From positions 7,732,001 through 7,796,000 of the forward strand of contig NZ_CP064689.1 in NCBI RefSeq assembly GCF_023100945.1: a DNA stretch of 64,000 nucleotides, given 5' to 3'. The position numbers were made by a program, and so were the translations under genes. The stretch is from Bradyrhizobium sp. 200. GTDB taxonomy: Bacteria > Pseudomonadota > Alphaproteobacteria > Rhizobiales > Xanthobacteraceae. This document shows, in pieces, positions 14,689 through 44,205 of the stretch (the stretch's first letter is position 1; every line of letters begins with the position of its first letter). The notes beneath the pieces are model-generated. The model searched no databases. It was not told the DNA's origin and worked only from the letters and a program-made list of their open reading frames with translations.

Positions 14689-15492
14689 TCAACGCCCCTT
14701 GAACCTTGGTTGCCGTTTTTCTGCGAACGCACGGCGGCCTTCGGCGTAGTCCTCGCTCGCGAAGCAGGCGGTCGCCATGGCTTCGACGGCAGATATGTCC
14801 TGGTGTTGAGGCGCCATCTGCGTGGTGGCAATGGCACGTTTTGCTGCACCGATCGTAAGGGGCGCATTGCCTGCGATATTTTTGACGAGTTCGTTCGCTT
14901 CCGCCGTGAGACGCGCTTTCGGCACGACCATGTCGACGACGCCGATGCTTTTCGCTTCATCCGCACCGAACTTTCGTGCCGAGAAGAAGATCAGCTTCGC
15001 GCGGGATGGCCCCACCAGATCGACGAGGCGCTTGATTCCGACATAGTCGTATCCGAGACCGAGCCTCGCTGCCGGTATCGAGAAGCGCGCATCATCGGAA
15101 GCGATCCGGATGTCACAGCACAACGCGAGAGCAACGCCACCACCGATGCAATAGCCGTCTATGACGGCGATGGTCGGCTTCTTCGTCGCCTCAAGAAGCG
15201 TCATGGAATCTTTCGCCGCCGCATCGTAGACGTGCACCGCCTCGCCGGTGCGAAGACTGTCAAATTCCGAGATGTCCGCGCCTGAGGCGAATGCCTTGTC
15301 GCCCGCGCCGCAAATAATCAGACACCGCAGACTTTCGTCTTGCTCGTAACGCCGGACGGCGTCCGCGATCTGATGCCACATGGCAAGCGAGATCGCGTTC
15401 ATCCGTGCGGGGTTCTCCAGCGAGAGCCATGCGACGCCGTCTGACGAACTGCGGACCGCACGCCCAACAGCATTTGGAGTGGACGAAGTCAT
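14689..15492 (-). CDS. Enoyl-CoA hydratase/isomerase (crotonase) family protein
   Basis: 267 residues. The oxyanion-hole segments are GDKAFASGADISEF and DGYCIGGGVALALCCDIRIA. At the position of the first hydratase Glu it has FSIPAARLGLGYDYVG, which lacks that Glu, so simple hydration may not be its reaction. Isomerase, dehalogenase or hydrolase activities exist in such variants. It precedes the PEP mutase-like enzyme and the liv genes in one run of minus-strand genes. That arrangement suggests a shared pathway for an imported branched or substituted acid. Confidence 0.88.
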   Translation of the reverse strand: MTSSTPNAVGRAVRSSSDGVAWLSLENPARMNAISLAMWHQIADAVRRYEQDESLRCLIICGAGDKAFASGADISEFDSLRTGEAVHVYDAAAKDSMTLLEATKKPTIAVIDGYCIGGGVALALCCDIRIASDDARFSIPAARLGLGYDYVGIKRLVDLVGPSRAKLIFFSARKFGADEAKSIGVVDMVVPKARLTAEANELVKNIAGNAPLTIGAAKRAIATTQMAPQHQDISAVEAMATACFASEDYAEGRRAFAEKRQPRFKGR

Positions 15493-15865: not shown

Positions 15866-17128
15866 CTATGCGTTCGAAGGCAAGGCGCGATTGCTCAATG
15901 CCGGCTCCCAGGCGGGCAGTTTCAATTCAGTAGCCTTCCGCAATTCGAGTCTCGCGATTTGATCGCGATGGACCTCGTCCGGTCCGTCCGCAAGTCGAAG
16001 CAGCCGCGCGGTAGCGTAGGCAGCCGCCAACCCGAAATCGTTGCTTGTGCCACCACCGCCAAAAACCTGGATAGCCCAATCGATCACGGTCGCGGCCATC
16101 TTCGGAACGGCAACCTTGATCATCGCAATCTCGGCCTTGGCGACCTTGTTGCCAACAGTATCCATCATATAGGCCGCCTTCAGCGTCAGGAGGCGAGCCT
16201 GCTCGATCATGATGCGCGCTTCGGCTATGCGCTCACGGGTGACGGATTGCTCAGCGACGGTCTTCCCGAACGGTCGACGCTGCTGACTGCGCACGCACAT
16301 TTTCTCAAGACTGCGCTCCGCCAGGCCCACGAGCCGCATGCAATGATGGATGCGACCCGGGCCAAGGCGGCCCTGAGCAATTTCGAAACCCCGCCCCTCT
16401 CCCAGCAAAATGTTATCTGCGGGCACGCGAACGTTGCGGAAGATCACCTCGGATGCCCGGTCCGGCACCCCGTAGAAGCCGAAGACAGGAATGGAGCGAA
16501 CGACCTCGATACCGGGACTATCCTTGGGGACGAGGATCATCGACTGTTGCCGATAGCGATCCGGACTGTCCGGCGCCGTCTTCCCCATGAAGATGATGAT
16601 CTTGCAGCGCGGATCGGTTGCGCCGGTCGTGTACCACTTTCGCCCGTTGACGACGTATTCGTCCCCCTCGCGCCGGATGTTGCTCTCGATGTTCGTTGCA
16701 TCGCTCGACGCGACGTCGGGCTCCGTCATCGCGAACGAGGAGCGGATCTGGCCTGCCAGCAGCGGCTCGAGCCACTGCTTCTTCTGCGCTTCGCTTCCGT
16801 ACCGGACCAGGACTTCCATATTGCCCGTGTCGGGCGCGGAGCAATTGAACACTTCCGGAGCCAGATGGGAGCGCCCCATGATTTCGCAAAGCGGAGCATA
16901 TTCGAGATTGGTCAGCCCGGGGCCGAGCAGAGAATCCGGCAGGAACAGATTCCATAGCCCTTGCTCCTTCGCCTGGAACTTCAATTCTTCCACCACGGGC
17001 TGAACCTTCCACGGACCTAGGTCCTCGGATTCGCGATAGAAGCGGGTCTCGTTCGGATAGATGTGCCTGGCCATAAAGGCCTGCACCTGCATCTCCAATT
17101 GCTCCACCCGCTGCGATTTCTCAAACAT
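15866..17128 (-). CDS. Acyl-CoA dehydrogenase, ACAD10/11 type
   Basis: 420 residues, full length. FAD/acyl-CoA domain motifs are [20 protein letters not shown] and [19 protein letters not shown] in the middle domain. [20 protein letters not shown] and [10 protein letters not shown] open the C-terminal helical domain. [20 protein letters not shown] with [10 protein letters not shown] near the end is characteristic of the ACAD10/ACAD11 clade. That clade works together with an APH-type kinase on 4-hydroxyacyl-CoA. The kinase-like gene is divergent next door, which supports this reading. A truncated, frameshifted relative lies at 23875-24372. Confidence 0.9.
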
Positions 17129-17202: not shown

Positions 17203-17236
17203 ACAGACTAAATTGAAGGCCTATGCTCGTCGCCAG

Positions 17237-18295
17237 ATGGAAATCCGCAAAGAAATGAACGAGCCTGAAGCATCAACGGGGAGCAATTCGCCCCTTCCGG
17301 TTGACCGCCTGACGGACTGGTTGAACGACAACCTGCCTGGATTTAGGGGGCCCTTGCGGGTGGAGCGCTTTGCGGGCGGCCAATCCAACCCGACGTTCAG
17401 GCTCGACTCGGCATCCGGAAGCTACGTTCTGCGCCGCAAACCGACGGGGAATGTGCTGCCTGCGGCCCATGCCGTCGACCGGGAGTTTCGCGTTCTCGGC
17501 GCCGGAGGGTGCGCCGGCGTTCCGGTACCCCATGTTCACGTGCTCTGCATGGATCCCACCGTTATCGGCAGCATGTTCTATTTGATGGGTCGCGTGCCGG
17601 GTCGCGTCTTCTGGGATCCGCGGCTATCGGATATGTCGGTGCGGGACCGGGGCCAGATCTTTGGTTCGATGAATCGCGTGATCGCCGCAATCCACAATCT
17701 CGACCCGGACTTGATCGGGCTTGGCGATTTTGGCCCCCGCCAAGCCTATCTGACGCGGCAGGTGACCCGCTGGACGAAACAATATCGCTCCGCGGAAACG
17801 ACAACGAACGAAGCGATGGAGCAGTTGATCGAGTGGCTGCCCAAACATCTTCCGTCCGAGGGCGAATTACGCGTCGTTCACGGGAATTGTCGTCTGGACA
17901 ACGTCCTGATCCACCCGACCGAGCCCCGCATCGTCGCCGTGCTCGATTGGGAGCTGGCAACACTGGGAGATCCGATTGCCGATTTCGCCTACCACGCGAT
18001 GACATGGCGGATTCCGCCGGCGCTCTTTCGCGGCCTGGCCGGCATTGATTTCGTCGATCTGGGCATTCCCGACGAGCGGCAATATTTGACGCAGTACGTG
18101 GAATGCAGAGGTGTCAAGGTGCCCGAGAACTGGGACTTCTACATTGTCCTGAGCTTGTTCCGGATTGCCTCTATCTTGCAGGGCATCGCCAAACGCGCCC
18201 TCGACGGCACTGCCGCGAATGCGGACGCCGTCGACGTCGGAAGCAGAGCTGCGCCTCTCGCCGCGTTGGCCTGGCAGATGGCATCTCGGCTTTAA
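17237..18295 (+). CDS. APH-type phosphotransferase (ACAD-associated kinase) with altered catalytic motif
   Basis: 352 residues from the ATG at 17237; a TTG at 17213 or the ATG at 17255 are alternatives. The fold is the aminoglycoside phosphotransferase/choline kinase type: RFAGGQSNPTFRLDSASG as the nucleotide loop, YVLRRKPTG with the ATP Lys region, and VLDWELATLGDPIADFAY with the metal Asp. The Brenner-type motif expected as HGDxxxxN reads VVHGNCRLDN, so the catalytic Asp is Asn (codon AAT). Homologues phosphorylate the 4-hydroxyl of 4-hydroxyacyl-CoA for an ACAD partner. Here activity may be reduced or lost. The dehydrogenase gene follows after 28 bp. Confidence 0.85.
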   Translation: MEIRKEMNEPEASTGSNSPLPVDRLTDWLNDNLPGFRGPLRVERFAGGQSNPTFRLDSASGSYVLRRKPTGNVLPAAHAVDREFRVLGAGGCAGVPVPHVHVLCMDPTVIGSMFYLMGRVPGRVFWDPRLSDMSVRDRGQIFGSMNRVIAAIHNLDPDLIGLGDFGPRQAYLTRQVTRWTKQYRSAETTTNEAMEQLIEWLPKHLPSEGELRVVHGNCRLDNVLIHPTEPRIVAVLDWELATLGDPIADFAYHAMTWRIPPALFRGLAGIDFVDLGIPDERQYLTQYVECRGVKVPENWDFYIVLSLFRIASILQGIAKRALDGTAANADAVDVGSRAAPLAALAWQMASRL

Positions 18296-18323
18296 CGTTG
18301 ACCTATCCGAGAGAGTCGAAGTG

Positions 18324-19178
18324 ATGGTGACAGGAAAAGAACGTATCGGCGTAATCGGCGCAGGATTGATGGGCGCCGAAATTGCTTTCGTCCACGCCGT
18401 GGCCGGCCATGACGTGATCCTTTGCGACAAGATCGAGGACGCGTTATCGCGTGCCACGCGGCGCCTCAATGAAATATACGACAAAGGCGCATCGCGCTCC
18501 TTCTACGATCCACACCGCAAATCCGAGGTGCTGGGCGCCATTCGGACGACAGTCGACATGCGTGAACTTGCCGACCGCGAAGTGGTGATCGAAGCGGTCT
18601 TCGAGCAGCAGACCGTCAAGGAAGAAGTGTTGAAGGCGATTGACAGGATTTGCCGACCGGGGTGCCTGATCGCCACCAATACATCGACGATACCGATCAG
18701 CGTGCTCGCATCGTTTGTCTCACCCGAGCGCCGCGCCAGATTTGTCGGAACGCACTATTTCTCGCCTGTTTCGCGTATGAAATTGGTTGAGGTGATCCCG
18801 GCCATCGAGACCGACGAAATGACCGTCTCCGAGGTCATGCAGCTTTGCGGTGATATCGGCAAGACGCCCGTCAGAATCAAGGATGTCACGGGATTTGCCG
18901 TGAACCGATTGTTGCACGTGCTGATGATCGAGGCGGTGCGGCTCGTCGAGGAAGGCGTCGCAACGCCCGAGGACATCGATCTCGCCTGCCGGCTCGGTCT
19001 GGGTCACCCGATGGGTCCTTTTGAGTTGATGGATGCGACAACGTCCAGCCTCTGTCTGCAGGCACAGCAGATCATGTTCGATGCCTATGGCGAGCGCTTT
19101 CGGCCGCGGCCGTTACTCAAGCAGCGGGTCCAGGCCGGCTATGTCGGCGGTCGCGGCCGCAAAGGATGGCGCAATTGA
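18324..19178 (+). CDS. 3-hydroxyacyl-CoA dehydrogenase
   Basis: 284 residues from the ATG at 18324, the usual length of a single HBD enzyme. The Rossmann start is IGVIGAGLMGAEIAF, followed by VVIEAVFEQQTVKEE. The catalytic His region is GTHYFSPVSRMKLVEV, then VTGFAVNRLLHVLMIEA begins the C-terminal domain. HPMGPFELMDAT is the conserved substrate-side loop. It oxidises 3-hydroxyacyl-CoA to 3-ketoacyl-CoA with NAD. A longer frame from 18165 overlaps the kinase gene and is rejected. Its end overlaps the GntR gene by 13 bp. Confidence 0.92.
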   Translation: MVTGKERIGVIGAGLMGAEIAFVHAVAGHDVILCDKIEDALSRATRRLNEIYDKGASRSFYDPHRKSEVLGAIRTTVDMRELADREVVIEAVFEQQTVKEEVLKAIDRICRPGCLIATNTSTIPISVLASFVSPERRARFVGTHYFSPVSRMKLVEVIPAIETDEMTVSEVMQLCGDIGKTPVRIKDVTGFAVNRLLHVLMIEAVRLVEEGVATPEDIDLACRLGLGHPMGPFELMDATTSSLCLQAQQIMFDAYGERFRPRPLLKQRVQAGYVGGRGRKGWRN

Positions 19179-19900: not shown

Positions 19901-21101
19901 ATGCGTGAGGCAGTCATTGTATCCACTGCTCGCACGCCGATCCGTAAGGCTTACCGCGGCAGCTTCAACAACACTCAGGCGCAGACTTTGGGCGGACACA
20001 CAATAGCGGCCGCCGTCGCGCGTTCCGGCGTCGACCCGACGGAGATCGACGACGTGATCATGGGCTCTGCCATGCAACAGGGAGCCACCGGCGGCAACAT
20101 TGCTCGGCAATCGGCGTTGCGCGCCGGCCTGCCCGTGAGCGTGGCGGGCATGAGTATCGACCGGCAATGTGCGTCCGGCCTCATGGCCGTGGCGACGGGA
20201 GCCAAGCAGATCATTGCCGACGGCATGTCAGTGGTTGTGGCGGGCGGCCTGGAATCTATCTCCCTGGTCCAGAACGAGCACGCTAATAGCTGGCGCGCGC
20301 AGGATCCTGCGCTCGTGGCGAAAGTCCGGCGATTTACATGAGCATGCTGGAGACTGCCGAAATGGTCTCCCAGCGGTACAAGGTCGACCGCGCGCAACAA
20401 GATGCATTCGGCCTGCGCTCCCAGCAACGTACCGCTCACGCGCAGCAGGCAGGCTTCTTCGCCGATGAAATAGTGCGGGTCTCAACGACTATCCTCGTCG
20501 TGAACAAGGAGACCGGCCAGACGTCCGAGCAGCCGGTGACACTGACGCGCGACGAAGGCAACGGGCCCCAGACGAAGCTCGAAGATCTGCAGGCGCTCAA
20601 GCCGGCGTTCAAAGGCGGGCTGCAGCTTGGTCAAGGTGAATACATCACGGGCGGCAACGCCAGCCAGCTTTCCGATGGGCGGCGGCCCTGGTGCTGATGG
20701 AAGCCAAGGAGGTGGAGCGTCGGGGACTGGAGCCACTCGGCGTGTATCGAGGCATGCAAGTGGCGGGATGCGAACCAGACGAGATGGGCATCGGGCCTGT
20801 ATTCGCGATTCCCAAGCTGCTGCAGCAGCACGGTCTCAAGATCGATGACGTCGACTTGTGGGAACTGAACGAGGCGTTCGCTTGCCAAGTTATCTATTGC
20901 CGAGATCGGCTCGGTATCCCTGACGAACGTCTCAACGTTAACGGCGGGGCGATCGCGATTGGTCACCCGTACGGCATGTCAGGTGCCCGCATGGTCGGCC
21001 ACTTGTTGCTCGAGGGCCGCAGACGCCGCGCAAAGTACGGCGTCGTCACAATGTGCGTCGGCGGCGGCATGGGCGCGGCCGGCCTGTTCGAGGTGTTCTG
21101 A
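19901..21101 (+). pseudogene. Acetyl-CoA acetyltransferase (thiolase) interrupted by two frameshifts
   Basis: Three consecutive frames together give a complete thiolase of about 400 residues. The N-terminal part ends after LVAKV near 20325, where adding one base restores PAIYMSMLETAEMV in the next frame. The second break is near 20679 (GGG then CGG), where one added G restores [14 protein letters not shown]. All catalytic parts are otherwise kept: DRQCASGL (nucleophile), [19 protein letters not shown] and [12 protein letters not shown]. The remaining protein is undamaged, so the lesions are either very recent or sequencing errors. If intact, it would do the last thiolytic step of the cluster. 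Confidence 0.88.
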
Positions 21102-21889
21102 TGAAGGTTCGCGACAAGCACGTCGTCGTTACGGGCGGCGCGAGCGGAATCGGCAGGGCATTGTGCCAGGCCTTCGCGCGCGAAGGCGCACGGTCAATCA
21201 TCGTGGCGGATATCGATGAATCCGGTGCGGGCGCGGTTGCGGCCGAAGTCGGCGGACATGCTTCGCTGTGTGACGTAAGCTCCGAAGAGAACATCCGCCA
21301 TCTCATCGAGACTTCCGAAGCACGGTTTGGCCCGATTGACTTGTGGTGTTCTAATGCGGGGATTGCCGCCGGATTTCAGTCGGACTTCGTCAACGCGGCA
21401 GCTATCACCAATGACGTTTGGCACCGTGCCTGGTCGGTCAACGTCATGGCGCACGTCTATGCCGCGAGACATCTCATTCCCAAGATGCGGGCGCGCGGTA
21501 GCGGTTACTTCCTCAAAACCATATCCGCCGCCGGCCTGCTCTCCCAGATTGGCAGTGCCGTCTATGCGACCACGAAGCACGCCGCGGTTGGCTTTGCGGA
21601 GAATCTGGCACTCAGTCATTTCGACGATGGAATCCGCGTTTCGATTCTCTGCCCTCAAGGGGTCGATACCCCGCAATTGCGCGGCCTGCCGCGCGGTCCC
21701 CAATCGAACGATGGGGTGATGTCGGCCTCCGATGTGGCTGGGGAGGCAGTACGCGGCATTGAGGCGGAACGGTTCATGATCCTGCCACACGCGGAGGTTC
21801 ATGGCTATCTGCAAAACAAGACCGACGACATCGATCGTTGGATCCGAGGGATGGCACGCTTGCAACGGCAATTCCGGGCCGCCGACTAG
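21101..21889 (+). CDS. Short-chain dehydrogenase/reductase
   Basis: 262 residues from the ATG at 21101, which overlaps the thiolase TGA (TGATG). Classical SDR motifs are VVTGGASGIGRA (cofactor), CDVSSEE, CSNAGIAAG (NAG), a catalytic Ser in LKTISAAGLLS, and YATTKHA (YxxxK). The acidic residue after the second strand (VADIDE) favours NAD. It is probably an oxidoreductase for a hydroxyacyl or ketoacyl intermediate. In levulinate-type pathways an SDR interconverts 4-keto and 4-hydroxyacyl-CoA, which would suit the ACAD10/11 and kinase neighbours, but this is inference. Confidence 0.9.
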   Translation: MKVRDKHVVVTGGASGIGRALCQAFAREGARSIIVADIDESGAGAVAAEVGGHASLCDVSSEENIRHLIETSEARFGPIDLWCSNAGIAAGFQSDFVNAAAITNDVWHRAWSVNVMAHVYAARHLIPKMRARGSGYFLKTISAAGLLSQIGSAVYATTKHAAVGFAENLALSHFDDGIRVSILCPQGVDTPQLRGLPRGPQSNDGVMSASDVAGEAVRGIEAERFMILPHAEVHGYLQNKTDDIDRWIRGMARLQRQFRAAD

Positions 21890-23585: not shown

Positions 23586-23874
23586 CTCCCAACGAACTTT
23601 GTGGCCCACCCACCGCTCCAACCCATGTGGCGCGAGGATGGCGAAGGCCAATGCAAGAATTTGCACTGGCCGCACCGTTTTACTGCCTTCAACACGACAA
23701 TTCGAATGTCCGGAATTCGATGCCGTATGGGACCGAATACATCGTGGCGGCCTGCCGGATCGACGGTGGTGTAATGCCTTGCGACTCCTGAAAGGTCTCA
23801 TCTTTTTTGGAAAACGCGATCTCGCTTATGGCATTCAACCTGCCGGAGCGAAGCGAGATTTGGAAAACATTTTT

Positions 23875-24372
23875 CCATTTACGGCCGTTGATAACGTAGT
23901 GATCGCCATCGCGCACGATCGAACTTTCGATATTGGTGGCGTCGCTCGACGCTACCGCCGGTTCGGTCATTGCAAAACAGCAGCGGATTTCACCTGCGAG
24001 CAACGGCTTCAGGCAGCGCTCCTGATGCTCTTTGGCACCGTAGCGCGCAAGCACTTCCATATTGCCGGTATCAGGCGCCGAGCAATTGAAGAGTTCGGGC
24101 GCGAGATGCGAGCGCCCCATGATTTCACAGAGCGGCGCGTATTCGAAATTGGTCAGGCCGGCGCCGTGGTCGCTCTCCGGAAGAAACAGATTCCAAAGTC
24201 CCTCAGATCTGGCTTTTGGCTTCAGTTCTTCGACAACTGGATAGACCTTCCAGCGGCCGAGCTCCTCGGCTCCTTGCAAAAGCGCTGTTCATTCGGGTAG
24301 ACGTGCCGATCCATGAACGATTCGATCCGCCGTTTAAGCGCGACGATTTTTTCGGCTCTGGATAAAGCATTG
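23875..24372 (-). pseudogene. N-terminal fragment of an acyl-CoA dehydrogenase
   Basis: The minus strand encodes [18 protein letters not shown], a frameshift near 24275, and then [20 protein letters not shown] through HYVINGRKW. This is closely similar to residues about 10-165 of the acyl-CoA dehydrogenase at 15866-17128, including the shared [16 protein letters not shown]. Homology stops after GRKW, so two thirds of the enzyme are missing. The 23586-23874 stretch beside it holds nothing I can assign. Confidence 0.8.
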
Positions 24373-24415: not shown

Positions 24416-25957
24416 TTAGTGAATCGCGGCATACATGATTTTCTCTTCTGTGGCCTGGGCGGCTGTCATTTCCTCGACGATCCGGCCGCCCCGCGCCACC
24501 AAGATGCGGTCGGAGATCGCCATGACTTCCGGCAGATACGATGAGATCACGATGACGGCCTTGCCGTCGGCCGCCAGCGCGCGAATAGCGGCATGAATTT
24601 GCGGGATCGCGCCGACATCGACACCTCGCGTCGGCTCGTCGAAGATCACGACCGAGGGCTCCTGCGCCAGCGATTTCGCGACAACGACTTTCTGCTGGTT
24701 GCCGCCGGAATATTCCACGATTTTCAGGCTGCGCTTGAGGGCGGAGATGGAAAGCGCCTTGACCCAGCGATCGGCGATCTTCTTCCTCTGCTTGAGCGAA
24801 TAGAGCCACCGCCGCCTGCCCTTCGGCGAAGCCAGATAGCCGAGATATACATTATCATCCGCGGTCATGGTCTCGAAGAAACCGTCCAGTTTGCGGTCCT
24901 CGGTGATATAGACGATGCCATCCCGCACCGCCTGCCGCGGCACGCGGTAGCGGATCGGTCGGTCATTGAGATAGATAAGCCCGCCGCGCAGGAAATTCCG
25001 CTTGCGCGCGCCACAAATGACATGTGCGATCTCGGTGCGGCCGGAACCTACAAGACCGGCCATGCCGACCACTTCGCCTTCATAGACCGAGAACGACATA
25101 TTCTTCACGACGCTGCCCATCGTGACGTTCTCGATCGACAGCACCCGGCGCTTATCCTTGATTCTCTCCGCAGGCGGCTCGATACCCGCCACGCCTTCGG
25201 CTTCGACCGCCGCATAGTGCGTCGCGGCAATGTCACGACCAGCCATCATCCGCACGATCGCCGGCCGGTCGAGCCCCGTCGCCGGACCGGTATGAACGAG
25301 CTTGCCGTCGCGTAGCACGGTGATGCGATCGGCGACCTTCAGCGCCTCTTCGAGCGCATGCGAAATGAAGATAATTCCAACGCCCTGCGAGCGCAGGCTG
25401 TTCAGCAGATGAAACAAGTGCTGCATCTCTTCTGGCGTGAGACTCGCGGTCGGCTCGTCGAAAATGATAACTCGCGCATTGTGGCGTACCGCGCGCGCAA
25501 TCTCGACCATCTGCCGCTTGGCAGTGCCAAGCGTTTCGACCAGCGCGAGCGGATCGACATTGAAGTTGAGCGCCTGCTGCGACTGCTGGGCAGCGATATT
25601 GATCTTGCGATAGATGGTGAAGAATTTCTCCATGCCAAGTTCGAGATTCTGCGCGACGGTCATCGAGGGAACGAGGCTGGTCTCCTGATAGACCATGGCC
25701 ACGCCGTTTTTCAGCGCCTCGCCGGGAGACGAGAACGAAACCGGTGTCCCGCCCAGAATGTAGTCACCTGACGTCAGCTTGATGGCGCCGGAGATCGCCT
25801 TGCAGAGGGTCGACTTTCCGGCGCCGTTTTCTCCGAGCACCGCATGGATTTCACCAGGTCGCAGGTCGAAATCGACGCTGTCGATGGCATGAATGCCGCC
25901 ATAGATCTTGCTGCCGGCGACAATCCGCAGAACCGGCGCAACCTCAGCGCTACTCAT
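24416..25957 (-). CDS. Sugar ABC transporter ATP-binding protein (RbsA/MglA type)
   Basis: 513 residues from the ATG at 25957 (GGGAG ribosome site). Two ATPase domains are present. The first has GENGAGKSTLCKAIS, a signature-like LGTAKRQMVEIARAV and VIIFDEPTASLTPEE. The second has a degenerate Walker A (GLVGSGRTE, usual in this family), YSGGNQQKVVVAKSLAQEP and VVIFDEPTRGVDVGA. This is the standard CUT2 ATPase that energises ribose/galactose-type importers. It is the last gene of the operon, and its start overlaps the propeller gene stop by 8 bp. Confidence 0.94.
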   Translation of the reverse strand: MSSAEVAPVLRIVAGSKIYGGIHAIDSVDFDLRPGEIHAVLGENGAGKSTLCKAISGAIKLTSGDYILGGTPVSFSSPGEALKNGVAMVYQETSLVPSMTVAQNLELGMEKFFTIYRKINIAAQQSQQALNFNVDPLALVETLGTAKRQMVEIARAVRHNARVIIFDEPTASLTPEEMQHLFHLLNSLRSQGVGIIFISHALEEALKVADRITVLRDGKLVHTGPATGLDRPAIVRMMAGRDIAATHYAAVEAEGVAGIEPPAERIKDKRRVLSIENVTMGSVVKNMSFSVYEGEVVGMAGLVGSGRTEIAHVICGARKRNFLRGGLIYLNDRPIRYRVPRQAVRDGIVYITEDRKLDGFFETMTADDNVYLGYLASPKGRRRWLYSLKQRKKIADRWVKALSISALKRSLKIVEYSGGNQQKVVVAKSLAQEPSVVIFDEPTRGVDVGAIPQIHAAIRALAADGKAVIVISSYLPEVMAISDRILVARGGRIVEEMTAAQATEEKIMYAAIH

Positions 25958-27080
25958 TCCGATCTCCCGTTGATCTCTCGTCACTGACGGGCAACTCGGC
26001 GATCTTACCATGTCCCTTCGACACTACCAGAACACGGCCGCGGTCGTCGGCGACGGCGGTAACGCCATGAAGTTGACCCGAGGCCCGGCTGTGAAAGCTT
26101 TCAACGGCATGTCCTCCGGCGTCGAGGCGCGCCACCAAGCCATAGGATCGCGGCGGCGCCCAAGGCTTTTGAATGCCAAGTTTCTTGATGCGGCCGATCT
26201 GCGTGGGCTCCCGATAATCGAACGCCCCACCAAGGGTCGGTCCGACCCACAGATGGGGAGGGACGTTCTCCATCATCCGTGCCCGAAAGGCATGCTCGCG
26301 CAGGACGAATTCGGTGAGTTGCGTTCGCAGGGCAAAGAAGGCGAGCCAATAGTGCCTGCCTGTGCCCCGTGCTATTCGCGATGGATAGCCGGTAAAATTC
26401 TTCACGAGCACTCGCGATTTGCCGCCTGACCGCTCGAACTCGCGCAGCCGATGCGACCACGACTCCGTGACGAAGACGCTCTCCTCGTCGTGCGTCACCG
26501 CGACGCCGCCCGGCCAGTCGAGACCATCGGCGACAGTGCGTGCATTCGTCAGCGCAGCGTCGCATGTGATCAGGCGTCCGGAAGGCGAACGCTTTTGCAT
26601 GAGATCGGGTAGCCAGTGATCGGGCGCATTGTATCGGGACCCGTCAGTCACGAAGATCGTTCCATCGGAGGCAACGGCGGCCGCCGTCGGACAGTGGATC
26701 GCCTCGCCGTCAACCTTCTCGAGCCATCCCGCTATTTTGCCGGTGCCATCGACAGTACAAATCCCGCGTTCGGAAACGCAAACAACAAGGCCCGTTTTCT
26801 CAGACCATGTCAGGCCGCCGACCTTGCCTTCAAACCGGACAAACGGGCGGCGAGTCTCGAAATCCCGCCCTGTGCAGGCATAGATCGTCTGCCCCGCGGA
26901 TACATACAACGCACCCCTGCTGTCCAGCGTCAGCGCATCGGGTGAATCGAAGCCGTCTCCGAGCTGCCGCGCCCGATCCAGCCGTTGGTTTGGCGAGAAG
27001 CCGCCATCGAGCACCGGGATCGAGTGGACGTCCCGGTTCGGAAAGAAGATGCGGTCGACGATATCACGCGCTAGCGACAC
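25950..27080 (-). CDS. SMP-30/strictosidine-synthase-like beta-propeller lacking metal ligands
   Basis: About 376 residues from a GTG at 27080, overlapping the upstream fusion gene by 17 bp; a longer frame to 27308 is antisense-like and rejected. Propeller blades are visible as DSRGALYVSAG, SDGTIFVTDGS and THDEESVFVTES. The positions that bind the metal in SMP-30 enzymes (E, N, D) read SPDAL, WPGGV and GYPSRI here, so all three ligands appear replaced. It is paralogous to the C-terminal half of the upstream fusion, which keeps them. A non-catalytic or differently acting partner is likely. No signal peptide is seen. Confidence 0.8.
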   Translation of the reverse strand: MSLARDIVDRIFFPNRDVHSIPVLDGGFSPNQRLDRARQLGDGFDSPDALTLDSRGALYVSAGQTIYACTGRDFETRRPFVRFEGKVGGLTWSEKTGLVVCVSERGICTVDGTGKIAGWLEKVDGEAIHCPTAAAVASDGTIFVTDGSRYNAPDHWLPDLMQKRSPSGRLITCDAALTNARTVADGLDWPGGVAVTHDEESVFVTESWSHRLREFERSGGKSRVLVKNFTGYPSRIARGTGRHYWLAFFALRTQLTEFVLREHAFRARMMENVPPHLWVGPTLGGAFDYREPTQIGRIKKLGIQKPWAPPRSYGLVARLDAGGHAVESFHSRASGQLHGVTAVADDRGRVLVVSKGHGKIAELPVSDERSTGDRNE

Positions 27081-29235
27081 GGTCTGTCCTTGTAACCATT
27101 GGATGTTGCTCCGCGTCGTCCTGCTTGCCACGCGCCCAGTAGGAGTTCCATCCGGTCCAGGTCGGATCGGCGTCGGGCAAAGGAAGCCTGCCAATGCGGT
27201 TGTTTTCGAGGCCGCCGATATACAGGTAGCCCTTGTGCTCGCGCATCGAGGTAATGGTCGGATGCGAGATACCGCCGGGGTCCCACAACGACTCGTGCAC
27301 CTTGCCATTATCGTCGAATTTGATCACGCAGCCGAAATTGATGCCGGGACATAGCCATTCGTCGGGCGGTATCTGCTTCACCATCCGGGTGCGGAACGCC
27401 GGATCGGCCATCGCGAGGTCATAGACCGGGGATCGCAATCCGACCATGGCAAGCCAATAAGTGCCGTCGGAGGCGCGGTTGATGTTGTCGGGATAGCCCG
27501 GCAGGTTTTCGACCAGCAATTCCAGCGTGCCCGCCTTCTCGCCCTCGATCCAGTAGCGATAGATGCGGCACAGCCACGTGCTGACCCAAAGCACCGCGTG
27601 TCCGTCATGGGAGACGCAGACGCCATTGGGAAAAGCCAGGTTGGAAAGCACGGTCTGCGTCTTTCCGGTCGCCGGATCGTGGCAGACCAGGCGGCCATTG
27701 CCACGTCCTTCGAATCCGTCGAGCGCCCAGTCGGACAGATCGTAGCGCGTGGTGGCATCGCTGAAATAGATCTTGCCGTCGGGCGCGACGTCGAGATCGT
27801 CGGCAAGCCACAGCCGCGAATCGTCCTTGAAACGATACCAGGTGCGGTTGGTCTCGTCGGTAACCTTGAATACCGTGCGGTCGGGCTTGACACCGTAGAC
27901 ACCCATGCCCGCCACGCAAACAAGCAGGTTCTCGTCGCGGTCGAGCGCCATGCCGAGCGGACGGCCCCCGATCCGCGCAAACTCCTCGCGACGCTCGTAG
28001 TCCGGCGCAAGAAAGCGGATGATCGAGCCGTTGCGATTGACAGTATAGAGATTGTCGTGGCGGTCGAGGATGATGTCCTCGGGACCCTCGATGCGATCGA
28101 GCGCGATCGCCTGCGCATTCTTGAGCCGGTCGTTTTCCGCGAAAACCGTGCCGCTGCCGCGTTCGATCGAGGCCGGCGGAGAGAATTCGACGAGGCTCGG
28201 GCTGACATAGATCTTCTGGAGGATCTTGCTCTTGTTCTTGACGAACTTGACGTTGAAGCCCACCGCTGCCAGCAAGATCGCGCCGATCGCGCCCGTCGTC
28301 AGGCTGCCGTGGGTGCCGAGTTGTACCAGTCCGTTGATGAGCAGGAAGATGATCGCCGCGCCCATCAGCGCGCGACTGATGGTGCCGCGACCGCCGCTCA
28401 GACTGATGCCGCCAAGCACGGAGGCCGCAAGCGCGTTCACCTCCCAGCCAACTCCGGTATCGGTGCCGGCGCTGTTTTGCCGCGCCGCGTAAAGAATGCC
28501 GGCCAGAGACGCCAGCATTCCGGACAGAACGTAAGCGAGAAACAGGGAATGCCTGACGTTGATCCCGGCGTGCCGCGCGGCCTTGCGGCTCGAGCCGACT
28601 GCCATGATGTGAACGCCAGAGCGGATTCGCGTGAGATAGAGGTGCGCAATCACCCCGATGACAATGAGGCAGAACATATTGACGGGAATTCCAAACAAAA
28701 ATCCCGTGCCCAGGAAGTCCCAGGCCGTGCTGTCGGAGGACGCGCTGGCAAGCTCGGTCGCAAAGGCGCCGGTGATCTTGTTGTAGGCGGCGCGCAGGAT
28801 GATCAACACCACCATGGTCGTCAGGAAGGGACGCGTCTTGGCATACGCAATCAACCCGCCGTTGACGGCACCGATCAGCGCGCCCCAGCCAAGCACGGCG
28901 ACGATCGTCAGCGGCAATGGCCAGTCGCGCACCTGTATGAGATACAGCGTCAGGAAATCGGCCATCGCGAACACGGCCCCGACCGACAGATCGAGTCCGC
29001 CCGACAGGATCGAGATCGCCATCGCCATCGCCACGAAAGCCTGCTCGGGGAAGCTGCGCATCAATTGCTGCAACTGGGCGAGCGAGGTGTACCCGGGAAT
29101 GGTCAGGATGAAGACGACGAAGACCAGAATCAGCAGCGCGAACGGAACGATCGGCTCCATCCATCGCTTTTCGAGCAGTTCGCCGACCAGAAGCTGCGGC
29201 GAGTAACGATACCAGAAACGTCGTAGCGCATTCAT
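27064..29235 (-). CDS. Fusion of CUT2 ABC permease with SMP-30/strictosidine-synthase-like propeller
   Basis: 723 residues in one uninterrupted frame. Residues about 30-335 are an RbsC-type permease: repeated hydrophobic segments, MAISILSGGLDLSVGAVFAM, RRAxxH-like SRKAARHAGINVRHSLF, and VLGGISLSGGRGTISRALMG. Residues about 370-700 are a six-bladed propeller with the metal-site positions intact: IEGPEDIILD (Glu), AFPNGVCVSHD (Asn) and PGYPDNINRASDG (Asp). Such propellers hydrolyse sugar lactones or esters. As RbsC C-termini are cytoplasmic, the enzyme domain would sit at the inner mouth of the channel. It lies in the operon between the binding protein and a second propeller. Confidence 0.88.
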   Translation of the reverse strand: MNALRRFWYRYSPQLLVGELLEKRWMEPIVPFALLILVFVVFILTIPGYTSLAQLQQLMRSFPEQAFVAMAMAISILSGGLDLSVGAVFAMADFLTLYLIQVRDWPLPLTIVAVLGWGALIGAVNGGLIAYAKTRPFLTTMVVLIILRAAYNKITGAFATELASASSDSTAWDFLGTGFLFGIPVNMFCLIVIGVIAHLYLTRIRSGVHIMAVGSSRKAARHAGINVRHSLFLAYVLSGMLASLAGILYAARQNSAGTDTGVGWEVNALAASVLGGISLSGGRGTISRALMGAAIIFLLINGLVQLGTHGSLTTGAIGAILLAAVGFNVKFVKNKSKILQKIYVSPSLVEFSPPASIERGSGTVFAENDRLKNAQAIALDRIEGPEDIILDRHDNLYTVNRNGSIIRFLAPDYERREEFARIGGRPLGMALDRDENLLVCVAGMGVYGVKPDRTVFKVTDETNRTWYRFKDDSRLWLADDLDVAPDGKIYFSDATTRYDLSDWALDGFEGRGNGRLVCHDPATGKTQTVLSNLAFPNGVCVSHDGHAVLWVSTWLCRIYRYWIEGEKAGTLELLVENLPGYPDNINRASDGTYWLAMVGLRSPVYDLAMADPAFRTRMVKQIPPDEWLCPGINFGCVIKFDDNGKVHESLWDPGGISHPTITSMREHKGYLYIGGLENNRIGRLPLPDADPTWTGWNSYWARGKQDDAEQHPMVTRTDRVASA

Positions 29236-29316: not shown

Positions 29317-30342
29317 TTATTCCTTCGGTACGACGAAGCAGTACTGGCGGTCGGCTTTGCCCGAGACCCAGTAGTTGGTGGTGTAGTAGGCGAGCTGCGT
29401 CGTTCCCGCAGGGCGGCTATCCTGCAACAGCGTCAACACGGCATTGACGATCGCCTCGCCCTGCGTATCGGCGCGATAGGACAGGTTCTTGGTGAACAGG
29501 CCCTGCTCCAGCATGTCGCAGTCGGCCGGTTGACCATCGCTCGCCACGAAGATCTTGACCTGGTCCTGCTTGCCAGCGTTCTTGACCACCTGCGCGGCGC
29601 CCGCCGTCTGAGGCCCCCACACGCTGAGGATGCCGCACAGATCCGGATTCTGCTGCAGGACGTTGGTGGTGATTTCGGAGGCCTTGTTGGCGTCCCAGTT
29701 CGACGGCTGCGACGACACGATCTTGATCGATTTGTCGGCATTGAAAACTTCTGTCGCGGCCTTGGTCATATCGAGCGAATAGGCCGCAGTTGCCTCACCT
29801 TGGATGATCGACACCTTGCCGGAGCCTTTTCCACCGCCGCAGGTCTTGACCACCTCTTCCGCCAGCATTCGGCCAAGCTTGGGTACGTCGGCACCGACAT
29901 AGGCGTCCGTCAACTGATTCGAAGCCATGTTGACCTGCACGACCTTGATGCCTGCATCCATTGCGCGCTTGAGTTCGCGCGCAAGCAACGTCGTGGTCGG
30001 ATTCCGCACCACCAGGATATCGGGCTTCTCGTTGATCAGCGAGCTCACAGCCTGGAGCTGGACATCCGATTTGAAATTGGGGTCGCGGACGATCAACTTC
30101 ATTCCGTAATCGTCAAAATGGGCCTTCATGACCCGCGTCCATTCGGATTCAAGGACGCCAAGCCATACCGGCACCCAGGCGACGGTCTTGCCCTTCACCG
30201 CGGTCTGAAATTTCTGGAGCAATTCCGCACGCGGATCGGCGGCCCGCGCCGTTCCAATCGATCCGGCTGCAAACGCGGCGATCGCAAGTCCCACCGCGCC
30301 GGCGAGAACGAATTCAAGGGTGGCCTTTTTGGTAATCGACAT
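29317..30342 (-). CDS. Sugar ABC transporter substrate-binding protein (RbsB-like)
   Basis: 341 residues with a Sec signal (MSITKKATLEFVLAGAVGLA, cleavage near ARAADP). The mature protein has the two-lobed periplasmic binding pattern: VAWVPVWLGVLESEWTRVMK, INEKPDILVVRNP, VVQVNMASNQLTDAYVGAD, then KVSIIQGEATAAYSLDM and FVASDGQPADCDM. It belongs to the type I (ribose-like) family that feeds CUT2 importers. Two cysteines in the C-terminal lobe and a third in VKTCGGG may form disulfides. It sits 66 bp after the first permease. Confidence 0.9.
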   Translation of the reverse strand: MSITKKATLEFVLAGAVGLAIAAFAAGSIGTARAADPRAELLQKFQTAVKGKTVAWVPVWLGVLESEWTRVMKAHFDDYGMKLIVRDPNFKSDVQLQAVSSLINEKPDILVVRNPTTTLLARELKRAMDAGIKVVQVNMASNQLTDAYVGADVPKLGRMLAEEVVKTCGGGKGSGKVSIIQGEATAAYSLDMTKAATEVFNADKSIKIVSSQPSNWDANKASEITTNVLQQNPDLCGILSVWGPQTAGAAQVVKNAGKQDQVKIFVASDGQPADCDMLEQGLFTKNLSYRADTQGEAIVNAVLTLLQDSRPAGTTQLAYYTTNYWVSGKADRQYCFVVPKE

Positions 30343-30408: not shown

Positions 30409-31410
30409 TCAATCGCCCTGCTTGGCAGTCTCCTCGTCGCGAGGATGAATGTAACTATCGAGCGTGATGGCCAGCAGCAGGACCGCGCCCTTGATCATGT
30501 CCTGGGTCTGGATGTCGAGGTTCATGATGGTCATCGCGTTGAGCAGCACGCCGATCAGCAACGTTCCCGCGATGACGCTGACGACGTTGCCCCGTCCGCC
30601 CACCAGACTGACGCCACCGAGTACGACGACGAGGATGACGTCGAAAATGATCGTCGATTCGGCGATCTGGAGATGCATCAGCGAGGTCGATCCCACCATG
30701 ATCACACCGCCGACGTAACCGATCGCGGAACAAATGGCGTATTCCAGCATCGTCAGCGGCCGCGTGGCCATTCCGGAAAGGCGTGCCGCCTGCGCGTTGT
30801 CGCCGTGAGCATAGATGAATCGTCCGAGCACCGTCCGCGACAGGAATAGATGCAGCAGCAGCGCATAGATCGCGAATGCGACCACCGGAACCGGAACACC
30901 TCCGAAGGTCGTACCGCCCAGCATCAGAAGCCAGTCGTGGCCGGGCTGCAAAAAGACCTGATAGTGTGGAACGACCAGGGCTCGCGTAACGCCGAGCACC
31001 AGAAGTCCCGACGCGAGCGTCGTGAACAGCGGCGGAATTTCGATGACCGACACCAGGTAGCCATTCGCAACTCCGATCCCGATCGACAGGAAGAGGCCGA
31101 AACCGATCGCAACGGACGGCGGCCAGCCGTTGTTGATCATGGTGACCGCAATCGCACTGGAACAGGCAAGCGAGGCGATTTGCGAGAGGTCTATTCCGCG
31201 CCCGATCACGACCACCGCCATGCCGAGTCCTAGGATTCCGAGGATGGAGATGCTGCGCGCGAGCGTGAACAGATTCCCGAGCGTGATGAAGCCCGTCAGC
31301 ACGACAGTTAGAACAAGGAAGAGAGCGAGCGTCACGCCGAGCACAATCGTCGACTGACTGGGCTTGTACCCGCTAACCCGCGGTTTGTCGGCCATCGCCT
31401 CGCTCGACAC
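30409..31410 (-). CDS. Sugar ABC transporter permease (RbsC-like)
   Basis: 333 residues with eight to ten membrane segments. Family marks are LGMAVVVIGRGIDLSQIASL, GDNAQAARLSGMATRPLTML (coupling loop) and VVLGGVSLVGGRGNVVSVIA. It is the first gene of the minus-strand operon and lacks any extra domain, in contrast to the fused permease at 27064. The two different permeases probably form a heterodimeric channel with the single ATPase protein. It is divergent from a GntR regulator at 31587. Confidence 0.92.
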   Translation of the reverse strand: MSSEAMADKPRVSGYKPSQSTIVLGVTLALFLVLTVVLTGFITLGNLFTLARSISILGILGLGMAVVVIGRGIDLSQIASLACSSAIAVTMINNGWPPSVAIGFGLFLSIGIGVANGYLVSVIEIPPLFTTLASGLLVLGVTRALVVPHYQVFLQPGHDWLLMLGGTTFGGVPVPVVAFAIYALLLHLFLSRTVLGRFIYAHGDNAQAARLSGMATRPLTMLEYAICSAIGYVGGVIMVGSTSLMHLQIAESTIIFDVILVVVLGGVSLVGGRGNVVSVIAGTLLIGVLLNAMTIMNLDIQTQDMIKGAVLLLAITLDSYIHPRDEETAKQGD

Positions 31411-31553
31411 GTCTACTCTCCCTCGCCGGCGAATGCGCGCGTTTCGGCGGCGTTAGTTTGGCTTTGCAGGTCCGACGGCTGGTTTTGATAACGGCCTCTC
31501 GCTGCCGTTCAGTACGCCGGGTCCACAAATACGGTTGTTAGTTGCATCTTATT

Positions 31554-31563
31554 TGTTATAACA
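31554..31563. promoter_or_regulatory. TGTTATAACA palindrome in the divergent promoter region
   Basis: A perfect 10-bp palindrome lies just upstream of the GntR gene and in the 176-bp region divergent from the sugar ABC operon. FCD GntR proteins often bind such TNGT-N-ACNA-type sites. It overlaps the first possible start codons of the GntR frame, favouring a later translation start. Confidence 0.55.
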
Positions 31564-31586
31564 GATTTATGCACGAGGTTCCCGAT

Positions 31587-32300
31587 ATGTCAACGACGAT
31601 CCCCGACGCGCTATCGACCGAGGGTGAGGCCGGCTCTGGTCAGTTCGGCCGGCAGATCACCAAGGAGAGCGTCAGCCAGCAGGCTTACGTCGCCATTCGC
31701 AACTCATTGATGCGAAGCCGGCTGAAGCCTGGACAAAAGCTCGTTGCGCGACAGGTCGCCGACGAACTCGGAATCAGTGTCACCCCGGTTAGAGAATCAT
31801 TGCTGCGCCTGGCTTCGGAACATGCCCTGATGATCGACGAGCGCGGAACGGTTATCGTCCCCGTGCTCACACTGGAACGCTGCATTGAAATTCGCGATCT
31901 GCGCATGCTGATCGAAGGCGAAGGCGCGGCACGCGCGGCCGCCCTTGTAACCCAGCCGGAGATCGAAAAGCTGCTGGCAATCCACGATCGCTATGTACGG
32001 ACCGAGGCCGACAGGAATTTTGCGGTAGCGTTGGCAGAAAACGAAAACTTTCATTTTGGTGTCTGCCGTCTCGCCAGATCGCCCACGCTATTTCGCGTGG
32101 TCGAAAATCTGTGGATGCAGTTCGGACCAATCCTTTCCTACCTTTACGACGCGCAGGCGCGGCCGTTTCACGGTCAGAAGCATGGGCATCTCCGCGTCAT
32201 CGAGGCTTTCCGGAAGCGCGATCCCGAGCTGGCCCGCAAGGCCATAAGCCAGGACATTCTCATCGGGGGCAAGACCCTTCTGGAAAAACTCAAGGCATGA
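31587..32300 (+). CDS. GntR-family transcriptional regulator, FCD subfamily
   Basis: About 237 residues from the ATG at 31587, which has GAGG eight bases upstream; in-frame starts at 31542 and 31569 also exist, but the first overlaps the operator. Helix-turn-helix: SRLKPGQKLVARQVADELGI, then SVTPVRESLLRLASEHA. The FCD domain follows with DLRMLIEGEGAARAAALV, ENFHFGVCRLA and a late H in GQKHGHLRVIEAF. It most likely controls the divergent sugar-type ABC operon and perhaps the acyl-CoA ligase 46 bp downstream. Confidence 0.88.
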   Translation: MSTTIPDALSTEGEAGSGQFGRQITKESVSQQAYVAIRNSLMRSRLKPGQKLVARQVADELGISVTPVRESLLRLASEHALMIDERGTVIVPVLTLERCIEIRDLRMLIEGEGAARAAALVTQPEIEKLLAIHDRYVRTEADRNFAVALAENENFHFGVCRLARSPTLFRVVENLWMQFGPILSYLYDAQARPFHGQKHGHLRVIEAFRKRDPELARKAISQDILIGGKTLLEKLKA

Positions 32301-32346: not shown

Positions 32347-33954
32347 GTGTCGGATAAATTTTTCGATGATAGCTGCTCGGGCGGAGCGCTTCGTGAAGAG
32401 CAACACTACGACGATCGGCATATGCTGTGCTTTTCGGAGCGTCCCGTCACCCTTGCCGCGATGTTTGCCGATCTCGTGCACCGCTTTCCCGAGCGGCCGG
32501 CTATCGTCGAAGATCGCACGATCACTTACCGCGAACTCGACGAAGTAACCCGAACGATCGCAACTGGGCTGTCAGGCTGTGGCATAGCGCGCGGCGATCG
32601 CGTAGCGCTGTTCCTCGGCAATTGTTGGGAATTCCTCGCATGCGTCTTCGCGTGCAATCGTATCGGCGCCATCGTCGTTCCCATCGGGACGCGCCAGCGG
32701 CAGGCTGAGCTTGAATTCCTGCTGAACGACAGCGGAGCCAAAATATTGATCTTCGAAGCCGATCTCGCGGATGCTATTCCCTCGCGAAGCGCGCTTCCCG
32801 CCGCCATGCAAATGTTTTCCGTTCACTGCACGGCAAACGACGCGCGTCCATTCAGCGAACTTCTCGCCGCTGTATCGCAATCGCCGTTTTTGCCGGGTTT
32901 ATTCGAAGAAGATGTCGCCGTCATCCTTTATACCTCCGGAACCACGGGGCGGCCGAAAGGCGCGCAATTGACCCACCTCGGAATCCTTCATTCCGCGCTC
33001 ACCTTCGCGCGCTGTCACGGCCTGACCGAGGTCGACCGCGGGCTGGTCGCGGTCCCGCTGTCGCATGTGACGGGACTGGTCGGAGTTGCATTGTCGACCA
33101 TGATTGTCGGCGGCTGCGTAGTGCTGATGCGCCAAGCCTACAAGACTCCGGATTTTCTGGCGCTGGCGAGCCGCGAGAACATCACCTATTCGATTCTCGT
33201 TCCAGCCATCTACACACTCTGCGCGATGCATCCGAAACTTGGGTCCTACGATCTGACGTCCTGGCGGATCGGATGTTTCGGCGGTGCGCCGATGCCGGTA
33301 GCTACCATCGAGATGCTGGCCGAGAAGCTGCCGCATCTGCAACTCCTGAATGCCTATGGCGCCACCGAGACCACGTCGCCGTCCACCGTGATGCCACGAA
33401 CACAATGGCGCGATCATATCGACAGCGTTGGAGTGACGGTTCCCTGCGGCCGGATCAAGGTGGTCGATGATGATGGACGAGAGGTGCCACGGGGCGTGCC
33501 GGGCGAGCTCTGGATCGCCGGCCCAATGGTCGTGCCGGGCTATTGGCGACGTGCTGAGGCCAATGCGAGCGAGTTCGTCGACGGCTTCTGGCGCTCCGGC
33601 GATATCGGATCGATAGACGCTGACGGCTTCGTGCGTATATTCGATCGCAAGAAGGACATGATCAATCGCGGCGGCTTCAAGATCTTCAGTGCGGAGGTCG
33701 AGAACGTCATCAGCAGCGTAGAAGGCGTTCTCGAATGCGCGATCATCGGCCGCGCCGACCCCGTCCTCGGAGAACGCGTTCATGCTATGGTAGTCATTGC
33801 GGAGCAAAGCACGGTAACCGCGGATAGCGTTCGTGCGTTCTGCGCCGAGCGCCTATCCGACTACAAGGTTCCGGAAACCGTCACGGTACAAACCCTCCCC
33901 TTGCCGCGCAACGCGAACGGAAAAGTCCAAAAACTCCAATTGCGTGACGGCTAA
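32347..33954 (+). CDS. Acyl-CoA synthetase (class I adenylate-forming)
   Basis: 535 residues from a GTG start. Motifs: LYTSGTTGRPKGAQLTHLG (about 195), NAYGATETTSPS (about 335), FWRSGDIGSIDADGFVRIFD (about 415) followed by RKKDMINRGGFKIFSAEVEN, and the catalytic Lys in LPRNANGKVQKLQLRD. It activates a carboxylic acid, substrate unknown. It follows the GntR gene closely and precedes a ruined thiolase on the opposite strand. The pair resembles the ligase-thiolase pair at 2.5-5.2 kb, but with a different ligase sequence. Confidence 0.92.
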   Translation: MSDKFFDDSCSGGALREEQHYDDRHMLCFSERPVTLAAMFADLVHRFPERPAIVEDRTITYRELDEVTRTIATGLSGCGIARGDRVALFLGNCWEFLACVFACNRIGAIVVPIGTRQRQAELEFLLNDSGAKILIFEADLADAIPSRSALPAAMQMFSVHCTANDARPFSELLAAVSQSPFLPGLFEEDVAVILYTSGTTGRPKGAQLTHLGILHSALTFARCHGLTEVDRGLVAVPLSHVTGLVGVALSTMIVGGCVVLMRQAYKTPDFLALASRENITYSILVPAIYTLCAMHPKLGSYDLTSWRIGCFGGAPMPVATIEMLAEKLPHLQLLNAYGATETTSPSTVMPRTQWRDHIDSVGVTVPCGRIKVVDDDGREVPRGVPGELWIAGPMVVPGYWRRAEANASEFVDGFWRSGDIGSIDADGFVRIFDRKKDMINRGGFKIFSAEVENVISSVEGVLECAIIGRADPVLGERVHAMVVIAEQSTVTADSVRAFCAERLSDYKVPETVTVQTLPLPRNANGKVQKLQLRDG

Positions 33955-39087: not shown

Positions 39088-39156
39088 AGGAGAAATCGGA
39101 CGTGGGTGGCGTTGTGCGTTTGAAGAATTCTGAGAGGTGATCCGATGGTGCTGATC

Positions 39157-43933: not shown

Positions 43934-43941
43934 GGAAGGAC

Positions 43942-44205
43942 TCACGTGGAGAGGTGACCAGGGATACGAATGTGCCGGCGCGTGACCTCGACAAACTCTA
44001 GATCGTGCTTCGCCGCCCAGACGGCCGCCATATGACCGATGAACCAGAGCAAGAGACCGGCAAGCCAAAGGCGCAGGCCGAGGCCCAGTGCCGCGGCCAA
44101 AGTGCCGTTTAAGATGGCAACGGACCGCGGTGCCCCACCCATCAGGATCGGCTCGGTCAAGGCGCGATGCACGGGCGCAACAAATCCTGGGATCTGCTCA
44201 TCCAT
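43942..44205 (-). CDS. trbD: Conjugal transfer protein TrbD (VirB3-like)
   Basis: 87 residues, MDEQIPGFVAPVHRALTEPI then LMGGAPRSVAILNGTLAAAL with two membrane segments and an end at RRHIRIPGHLST. The size and the PVHRALTEP start are typical of TrbD. It is an inner-membrane subunit working with TrbE. Its ATG overlaps the trbC stop by one base (TGATG). It was found inside a longer frame that continues past the real start. Confidence 0.92.
   Translation of the reverse strand: MDEQIPGFVAPVHRALTEPILMGGAPRSVAILNGTLAAALGLGLRLWLAGLLLWFIGHMAAVWAAKHDLEFVEVTRRHIRIPGHLST

Follow-up and report, generated by a model that had tools for sequence, protein, structure and literature searches.

A stretch of 64,000 nucleotides from Bradyrhizobium sp. 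200 (NZ_CP064689.1, positions 7,732,001 to 7,796,000; hereafter the window) carries a five-gene operon for a ribose-type ATP-binding cassette (ABC) importer, in which the second permease continues, in one open reading frame, into a beta-propeller of the strictosidine-synthase-like (SSL) kind, while the following gene encodes a second, free-standing propeller. The fusion and the five-gene operon are certain. As to their function, we would give an even chance to the reading that the permease-borne propeller is a metal hydrolase, which would act on hydroxy-acid lactones or esters at the inner mouth of the importer and open them. Metal binding, hydrolysis, the cargo, the coupling to transport and the role of the second propeller are inferred. 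All feature positions are those of the whole window, and residue numbers refer to its fusion protein, of which the parts are given here.

27064..29235, minus strand: permease 2::SSL propeller fusion, 723 amino acids (Pfam; single frame in 91 of 91 loci)
28264..29061, minus strand: BPD_transp_2 permease domain, residues 59-324 (Pfam)
28147..28239, minus strand: positively charged stretch with linker, following the last membrane span, residues 333-363 (charge average over 92 rows)
27166..28146, minus strand: SSL propeller, about residues 364-690, with E386, D387, D479, D480, N537, D583 and N584 (Pfam, alignments)

All Pfam domains of the fusion score above their cut-offs: BPD_transp_2 with 113 bits (residues 59-324), SSL_N with 52.2 bits (364-408), Str_synth with 75.7 bits (479-566) and SGL with 50.7 bits (392-599). 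There is no stop between the permease and the propeller in 27064-29235, as the initial annotation of this DNA had proposed. That annotation had also described the propeller as sugar-lactonase-like, of the SMP-30/strictosidine-synthase type. The strictosidine-synthase half of this description stands, with SSL_N and Str_synth both present; the other half fits less well, since Str_synth outscores SGL, so that the model expected to score best for an SMP-30/gluconolactonase comes second to it. The fused propeller is six-bladed and, judged by these scores, of the SSL kind rather than a sugar lactonase. Its solved relatives, searched by sequence at an E-value of 0.001, are strictosidine synthases and rice 8kg3 only (8 sequences), whereas with a profile of ten propeller copies diisopropylfluorophosphatase and the lactonase Drp35 come up as well. 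The permease part is similar to permeases for ribose and arabinose; no NCBIfam transporter model listed for it or for the importer reaches its cut-off.

A search for the same domain fusion reveals a widespread family. Ninety-one loci (L042-L132) were compared, 79 from named genomes (from the best 80 of 578 relatives) and 12 from plasmids (12 of 15 matches), and in every one of them a match of more than 450 residues extends into both parts in one open frame. Since selection was by best match to the entire fusion, other gene arrangements may be under-sampled. A less biased check is provided by a search with the propeller only in 289 genomes of the class: all nine matches of at least 54% identity sit in frames of 713-739 amino acids, and below those nine the identity falls to 40% or less for free-standing proteins and second propellers. 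Both domains are also present in 118 of the 120 database relatives listed, the two others (P0024 and P0043, 433 amino acids each) being without the permease domain. An assembly error or a frameshift as the source of the fusion is ruled out by the single frame in all 91 loci and by the nine close propeller matches. To call it the most unusual single gene of the window is too strong for a widespread family with a precomputed domain architecture, and also too narrow, since the fusion belongs to a five-gene operon that encodes two propellers. The four other genes of this operon are the following.

30409..31410, minus strand: permease 1, without propeller (Pfam)
29317..30342, minus strand: substrate-binding protein, Peripla_BP_4 (Pfam; solved-structure matches)
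25950..27080, minus strand: second propeller, free-standing, metal site lost; its likely GTG start overlaps the last 17 bases of the fusion
24416..26011, minus strand: double ATP-binding subunit (two ABC_tran stretches)

On the minus strand the order is permease 1, binding protein, permease 2::propeller, second propeller and double ATPase, the likelier start of the latter being the ATG at 25957, which overlaps the last 8 bases of the second propeller. Of the 77 loci whose sequence extends far enough to either side, 75 have all five genes in this order by script, and the two that the script missed are complete on inspection: the second propeller of L129 starts just outside the limits, and L094 has two tandem binding-protein genes. 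These two genes (L094, 7930-9895), in an otherwise usual operon, could serve two ligands. Both permeases belong to BPD_transp_2 (113 and 99.9 bits against a cut-off of 26.8), the binding protein to Peripla_BP_4, and the ATPase has two ABC domains; in these respects the system is an importer of the ribose type (CUT2), like RbsABC, AlsABC and LsrABCD. In contrast to those importers, its two permeases differ from each other, only one of them bearing an enzyme-like domain at its C-terminus, and an additional gene encodes a second propeller.

This second propeller gene (25950-27080), directly downstream of the fusion, had been missed by the initial annotation. Profile comparison indicates that both propellers are homologous (E 1.4e-42). 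Among 88 second propellers, the place of E386 is occupied by Asp in 85, Glu in 2 and Thr in 1, both acidic residues of the 479-480 pair are gone, and Asn is found at the place of N537 in just 18. The place of D583 is taken by Ala, Gly, Ser or Cys, followed by Arg in 87 copies and by Lys in the remaining one. Motifs of its own (WxxDL, ExW, KPWxP and HxRxxGxxHG) are invariant in all ten aligned copies. The second propeller is under purifying selection, with a ratio of nonsynonymous to synonymous substitution rates (dN/dS) of 0.171 against relative G025 and of 0.177 against G004 (the second value with a saturated dS of 2.03); decay of this gene is, on these values, not supported. Because it starts without a hydrophobic signal, both propellers would meet in the cytoplasm.

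In the fused propeller, all 91 fusions have E386, D387, D480, N537, D583 and N584 without exception, and position 479 is Asp in 88 and Asn in 3. After the pattern of regucalcin and PON1, E386, D479, N537 and D583 are taken to be the candidate metal ligands. The Glu, Asn and Asp positions that had been noted as intact are indeed so in the window copy (E386, N537 and D583), with D479 at the fourth position. Residues listed for PON1 in the available text of PMC7766523 are E53, N168, N224, D269 and N270. In the alignments, two strictosidine synthases have Gly opposite N537 and D583, and rice 8kg3 keeps both. The fused propeller is not a strictosidine synthase proper: Asn and Asp are kept, and its Thr662 faces a synthase Glu, presumably the catalytic Glu309. 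According to the available text of PMC4215206, most SSL proteins seem to retain four metal ligands and probably act as hydrolases; hydrolysis was shown for one SSL protein that has three of the four. This supports the reading of the fused propeller as a likely enzyme, a putative metal hydrolase. The free-standing bacterial SSLs L154, L155 and L156 share the GPE, DD, ANGV and DN motifs with the fused propeller (which reads PNGV there).

The hydropathy averaged over the family (92 rows) gives 9 membrane spans at a strict cut-off and 10 at two looser ones. With hand-drawn loops, the mean net charges are, in order, +1.9, -0.8, -0.4, +2.0, -2.8, +6.3, -0.9, +2.0, -0.1 and +3.7, the last being that of residues 333-345, just before the propeller. 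Positively charged loops lie on the cytoplasmic side of membrane proteins (the positive-inside rule). Because 10 spans and these charges fit this rule, both ends of the protein would be inside, and a cytoplasmic propeller is the favoured prediction. No printed topology of RbsC was found by title and abstract start in the open-licence literature.

The fusion is found in soil and marine bacteria and in at least three phyla, Pseudomonadota, Actinomycetota and Thermodesulfobacteriota, the last resting on a metagenome-assembled genome (MAG). The named loci include Rhodopseudomonas, Bradyrhizobium, Salipiger, Paraburkholderia, Pantoea, Amycolatopsis, Thermocrispum and a Desulfobacterales MAG. Among near relatives, a nearly full-length match occurs in 18 of 59 genomes besides the own one, some having two or three; even draws of the class and of the phylum yield 7 positive genomes out of 289 and 11 out of 398, own genome included. 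In the protein collection, the propeller is matched by 4271 of 8000 scored candidates. In a tree rooted at its midpoint, 22 sampled fused propellers form one clade and 22 second propellers another (support 100/100 and 100/99), with 11 free-standing SSLs (including L157-L164) outside both, and inside the two clades many of the same pairs recur. Several separate fusion events are not supported by this tree; its simplest reading would be one fusion, one recruitment of the second propeller and a long joint travel. The fused propeller is better conserved than its own permease part in all three groups of loci, the identities to the window copy being 83.7 and 72.7% in the near clade (21 loci), 65.5 and 53.1% in the next group (36) and 59.3 and 42.2% in the rest (34), for propeller and permease, respectively. 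Similarly, between the window and G004 the dN/dS of the propeller is below that of the permease (0.153 and 0.206).

The cargo is suggested by the genes around the operon. Those in the window are the following.

31542..32300, plus strand: GntR/FCD regulator, divergent from the operon (Pfam; similar gene in the same place in L042, L044, L046 and L048)
32347..33954, plus strand: AMP-forming acyl-coenzyme A (CoA) ligase (Pfam/NCBIfam)
23689..24279, minus strand: broken ACAD10/11-type dehydrogenase remnant, right behind the ATPase (relative G025 has a 76% identical full-length match there)
15866..17128, minus strand: intact ACAD10/11 (LvaC)-type dehydrogenase (468.8 bits to human ACAD11 2wbi; diagnostic residues)
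17213..18295, plus strand: APH-family kinase, related to the ACAD11 kinase domain (LvaA-like; 385.8 bits to 3dxp, 237.4 bits to ACAD11 8v3v)
18165..19178, plus strand: 3-hydroxyacyl-CoA dehydrogenase
14689..15492, minus strand: enoyl-CoA hydratase
21053..21889, plus strand: short-chain dehydrogenase

The clade of the window comprises 21 loci, with a fusion identity of at least 72%; the other 70 lie outside it. Within the fetched flanks, an ACAD10/11-type dehydrogenase accompanies the operon in 12 of these 21 loci, and five of the nine without it end near a contig edge (L043, L047, L050, L051 and L061). The 12 loci, which include Nitrobacteraceae, Sneathiellaceae and Roseobacteraceae, are related and do not represent 12 independent events. 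Since whole genomes contain 2-4 matches to the dehydrogenase at 1e-80 (8 genomes of 6.7-10.4 Mb), such a neighbourhood would arise by chance in about 1% of 23-kb loci. A 12-residue stretch forming the R..H..R helix and the ADGPDE motif are present in all 12 neighbouring dehydrogenases, and the helix and the catalytic Asp (ADGPDE) are equally found in the window enzyme (15866-17128) when aligned to human ACAD11 2wbi. In the available text of PMC12440821, the R..H..R helix and the catalytic Asp are the residues suggested for the recognition of 4-phosphoacyl-CoA, and that of PMC11342911 describes a kinase-then-elimination route for 4-hydroxy acids. In Salipiger L048, short-chain dehydrogenase, ACAD, APH kinase, CoA ligase and regulator stand in one block with the transporter. 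The kinase is present in the window and in L048, and was not found at 1e-20 in the fetched flanks of the other 20 loci of the clade; a related kinase exists elsewhere in the genome in 8 of 8 genomes tested. The ACAD10/11-type gene in 12 of the 21 loci, together with the matching kinase of the window, suggests that the cargo is less likely a sugar than a hydroxy acid able to form a lactone.

Other loci have other neighbours. In Shinella L123, a degradative HMG-CoA reductase (8579-9904; TIGR00532, 434 bits) precedes permease 1, its stop overlapping the start of the latter by one base, and the L123 importer is a candidate for the uptake of mevalonate or mevalonolactone. Mevalonate also lactonises. 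As a general cargo it is not supported, a relative of this reductase occurring only in L123 among the 91 loci. Desulfobacterales L101 has a CoA ligase and an enoyl-CoA hydratase, Paraburkholderia L122 has CoA transferases together with MaoC hydratases, L121 and L131 have dehydrogenases for alcohols and aldehydes, and Pantoea L125 has sugar-phosphate genes. We infer that lactone-forming hydroxy acids may be the common cargo, which would suit both the ACAD10/11 and the HMG-CoA reductase cases.

On the basis of these elements, it is possible to propose how the system might work. The importer would consist of permease 1, permease 2::SSL, the double ATPase and the periplasmic binding protein, and the propeller on the cytoplasmic tail of permease 2 would belong to the SSL branch of the N6P superfamily and act as a hydrolase that uses a divalent metal. 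On leaving the channel, a hydroxy-acid lactone (or ester) would be opened to a charged acid, which could hardly leak back and could be ligated to CoA directly. In the clade of the window, a 4-hydroxy acid would pass through the CoA ligase to the kinase and the ACAD10/11-type dehydrogenase and from there into beta-oxidation. The second propeller would be a catalytically dead partner, probably pairing with the fused one or sensing the product.

Several observations weigh against this proposal. The assignment of E386, D479 and D583 as metal ligands follows the motifs of regucalcin and PON1, and when an SGL-type protein from the same genome was aligned, N537 was the only candidate ligand covered. 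The position that we take to be the counterpart of the catalytic His115 of PON1 is Arg in 67 and His in 11 of the 91 fusions; as it is mostly Arg, a PON1-like His dyad is not conserved. The cytoplasmic C-terminus assumed by the initial annotation is favoured by the family average, but a hydropathy scan of one sequence by itself finds 7 spans, with which the two ends would not both lie in the cytoplasm. Between the window and its 97% relative G025, the propeller has a higher dN/dS (0.076) than the permease (0.033). As to the cargo, four loci of the clade (L044, L049, L053 and L062) are without an ACAD10/11-type gene although their contigs run on, the motif occurs in only three of the 70 loci outside the clade (L093, L120 and L126), and the ACAD directly behind the window operon is broken. 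A close relative of the window kinase stands near the operon in L048 alone of the 91 loci, L105 giving a weak match of 113 bits, and the kinase is thereby rejected as a general neighbour; L126 has an annotated phosphotransferase-family gene beyond the reach of the kinase search. Six of the 12 annotated plasmid loci (L124, L125, L128, L129, L131 and L132) have no acyl-CoA gene in the stretch examined. Finally, the solved proteins that match the binding protein best are allose binders, followed by binders of ribose and other sugars, and this suggests a sugar-like or polar cargo.

Instead of hydrolysing its ligand, the fused propeller might be a sensor that binds the incoming substrate or product in the cytoplasm and slows the transporter (trans-inhibition), the metal serving for binding only. 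Cytoplasmic regulatory domains exist on other ABC importer families, for example in MetN and ModC, and the retention of a second propeller that has lost its metal site, seen where the locus is long enough and with purifying selection acting on it (dN/dS 0.171), implies that a site-less propeller is useful here. However, six invariant candidate active-site residues in 91 of 91 fusions and a slower change than that of the permease look enzyme-like, and we regard a sensor as rather unlikely. Slightly less probable again is a propeller that does hydrolyse the imported compound and is merely kept near by the fusion, with no mechanical or kinetic coupling. The conservation of the candidate site speaks as much for such a tethered enzyme as for coupled hydrolysis, and, as free-standing bacterial SSLs with similar motifs exist, catalysis need not involve the permease; yet the single fusion clade (22 rows) and the finding that all nine close relatives in the 289 class genomes are fused, none being split, suggest that proximity matters.

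The importer of a sugar lactone with a sugar-lactonase tail, as envisaged by the initial annotation, now appears improbable. SGL does score above its cut-off, the binding protein and the permeases are of the sugar type, and Pantoea L125 has its sugar-phosphate genes; but Str_synth scores higher than SGL, and the clade of the window sits with CoA ligase, ACAD10/11-type and beta-oxidation genes, so that a sugar lactone fits less well in spite of the sugar-like binding protein. A pure scaffold, in which both propellers would dimerise and organise the transporter or recruit the CoA ligase, could account for their being encoded back to back and forming one clade each, but leaves unexplained why the candidate metal positions are invariant in one propeller and not in the other, and is very improbable.

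The surroundings of the operon show further features. Broken or partial beta-oxidation genes lie near the intact ones (19901-21101, 22246-22599, 23689-24279 and 34029-34502), namely N and C parts of a thiolase in different frames, a piece of an enoyl-CoA hydratase, the ACAD remnant and a C-terminal piece of a thiolase; the pathway encoded here is in partial decay. Conjugation genes lie on the right-hand side of the operon, at 36234-45508 and 57385-62918 (TrbI, CagX, TrbL, CagE_TrbE_VirB, a T2SSE-type ATPase, a coupling protein, DUF3363 and SLT), and the operon may ride on an integrative conjugative element. Hydantoinase A and B are joined in one frame of 1283 amino acids (50847-54698), with an adjoining IclR regulator. 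No RNA families at the gathering threshold and no tRNAs were found in the window.

To our knowledge, enzymes fused to ABC permeases are rare. The domain architecture is already present in databases as a string of domains, and a functional account of the fusion was not found in the open-licence literature, judged mostly by title and abstract start and with most subscription journals lying outside it; the available text of PMC6759348 and PMC6710368 holds nothing on a permease::propeller fusion. Some known systems resemble it in part. With the SSL branch of the N6P propellers, as presented in the available text of PMC4215206, it has SSL_N plus Str_synth and the conserved candidate metal positions in common, the difference being the fusion to a membrane transporter. 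The Lva/ACAD10-ACAD11 catabolism of 4-hydroxy acids shares CoA ligase, APH kinase and ACAD10/11-type dehydrogenase with the window and L048; in the available text of PMC12440821 and PMC11342911 this pathway starts from levulinic acid or 4-hydroxy fatty acids and no such transporter is named, the link here being one of neighbourhood only. In Deinococcus, a Cu/Zn-SOD is likewise fused to a beta-propeller lactonase (PMC12362111, available text), with a soluble enzyme rather than a transporter as the partner.

More speculatively, and with greater doubt than the proposal for the window itself, the family may represent a class of vectorial catalysis that was not described before: an ABC importer with a cargo-converting enzyme on its own permease and an obligate dead-enzyme partner, maybe gating or sensing, which would have arisen once, would move between phyla as a five-gene unit and would change its binding protein for different lactonisable acids. 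If the propeller acts on the cargo, the coupling of transport to chemistry could be modelled here in a simple system, for which the operon supplies its own control: one propeller that looks active and one that looks dead. Such activity would also provide a physiological job for bacterial SSLs, which are often annotated as strictosidine synthases although most are deemed probable hydrolases in the available text of PMC4215206, and would give 4-hydroxy acid catabolism a transport entry.

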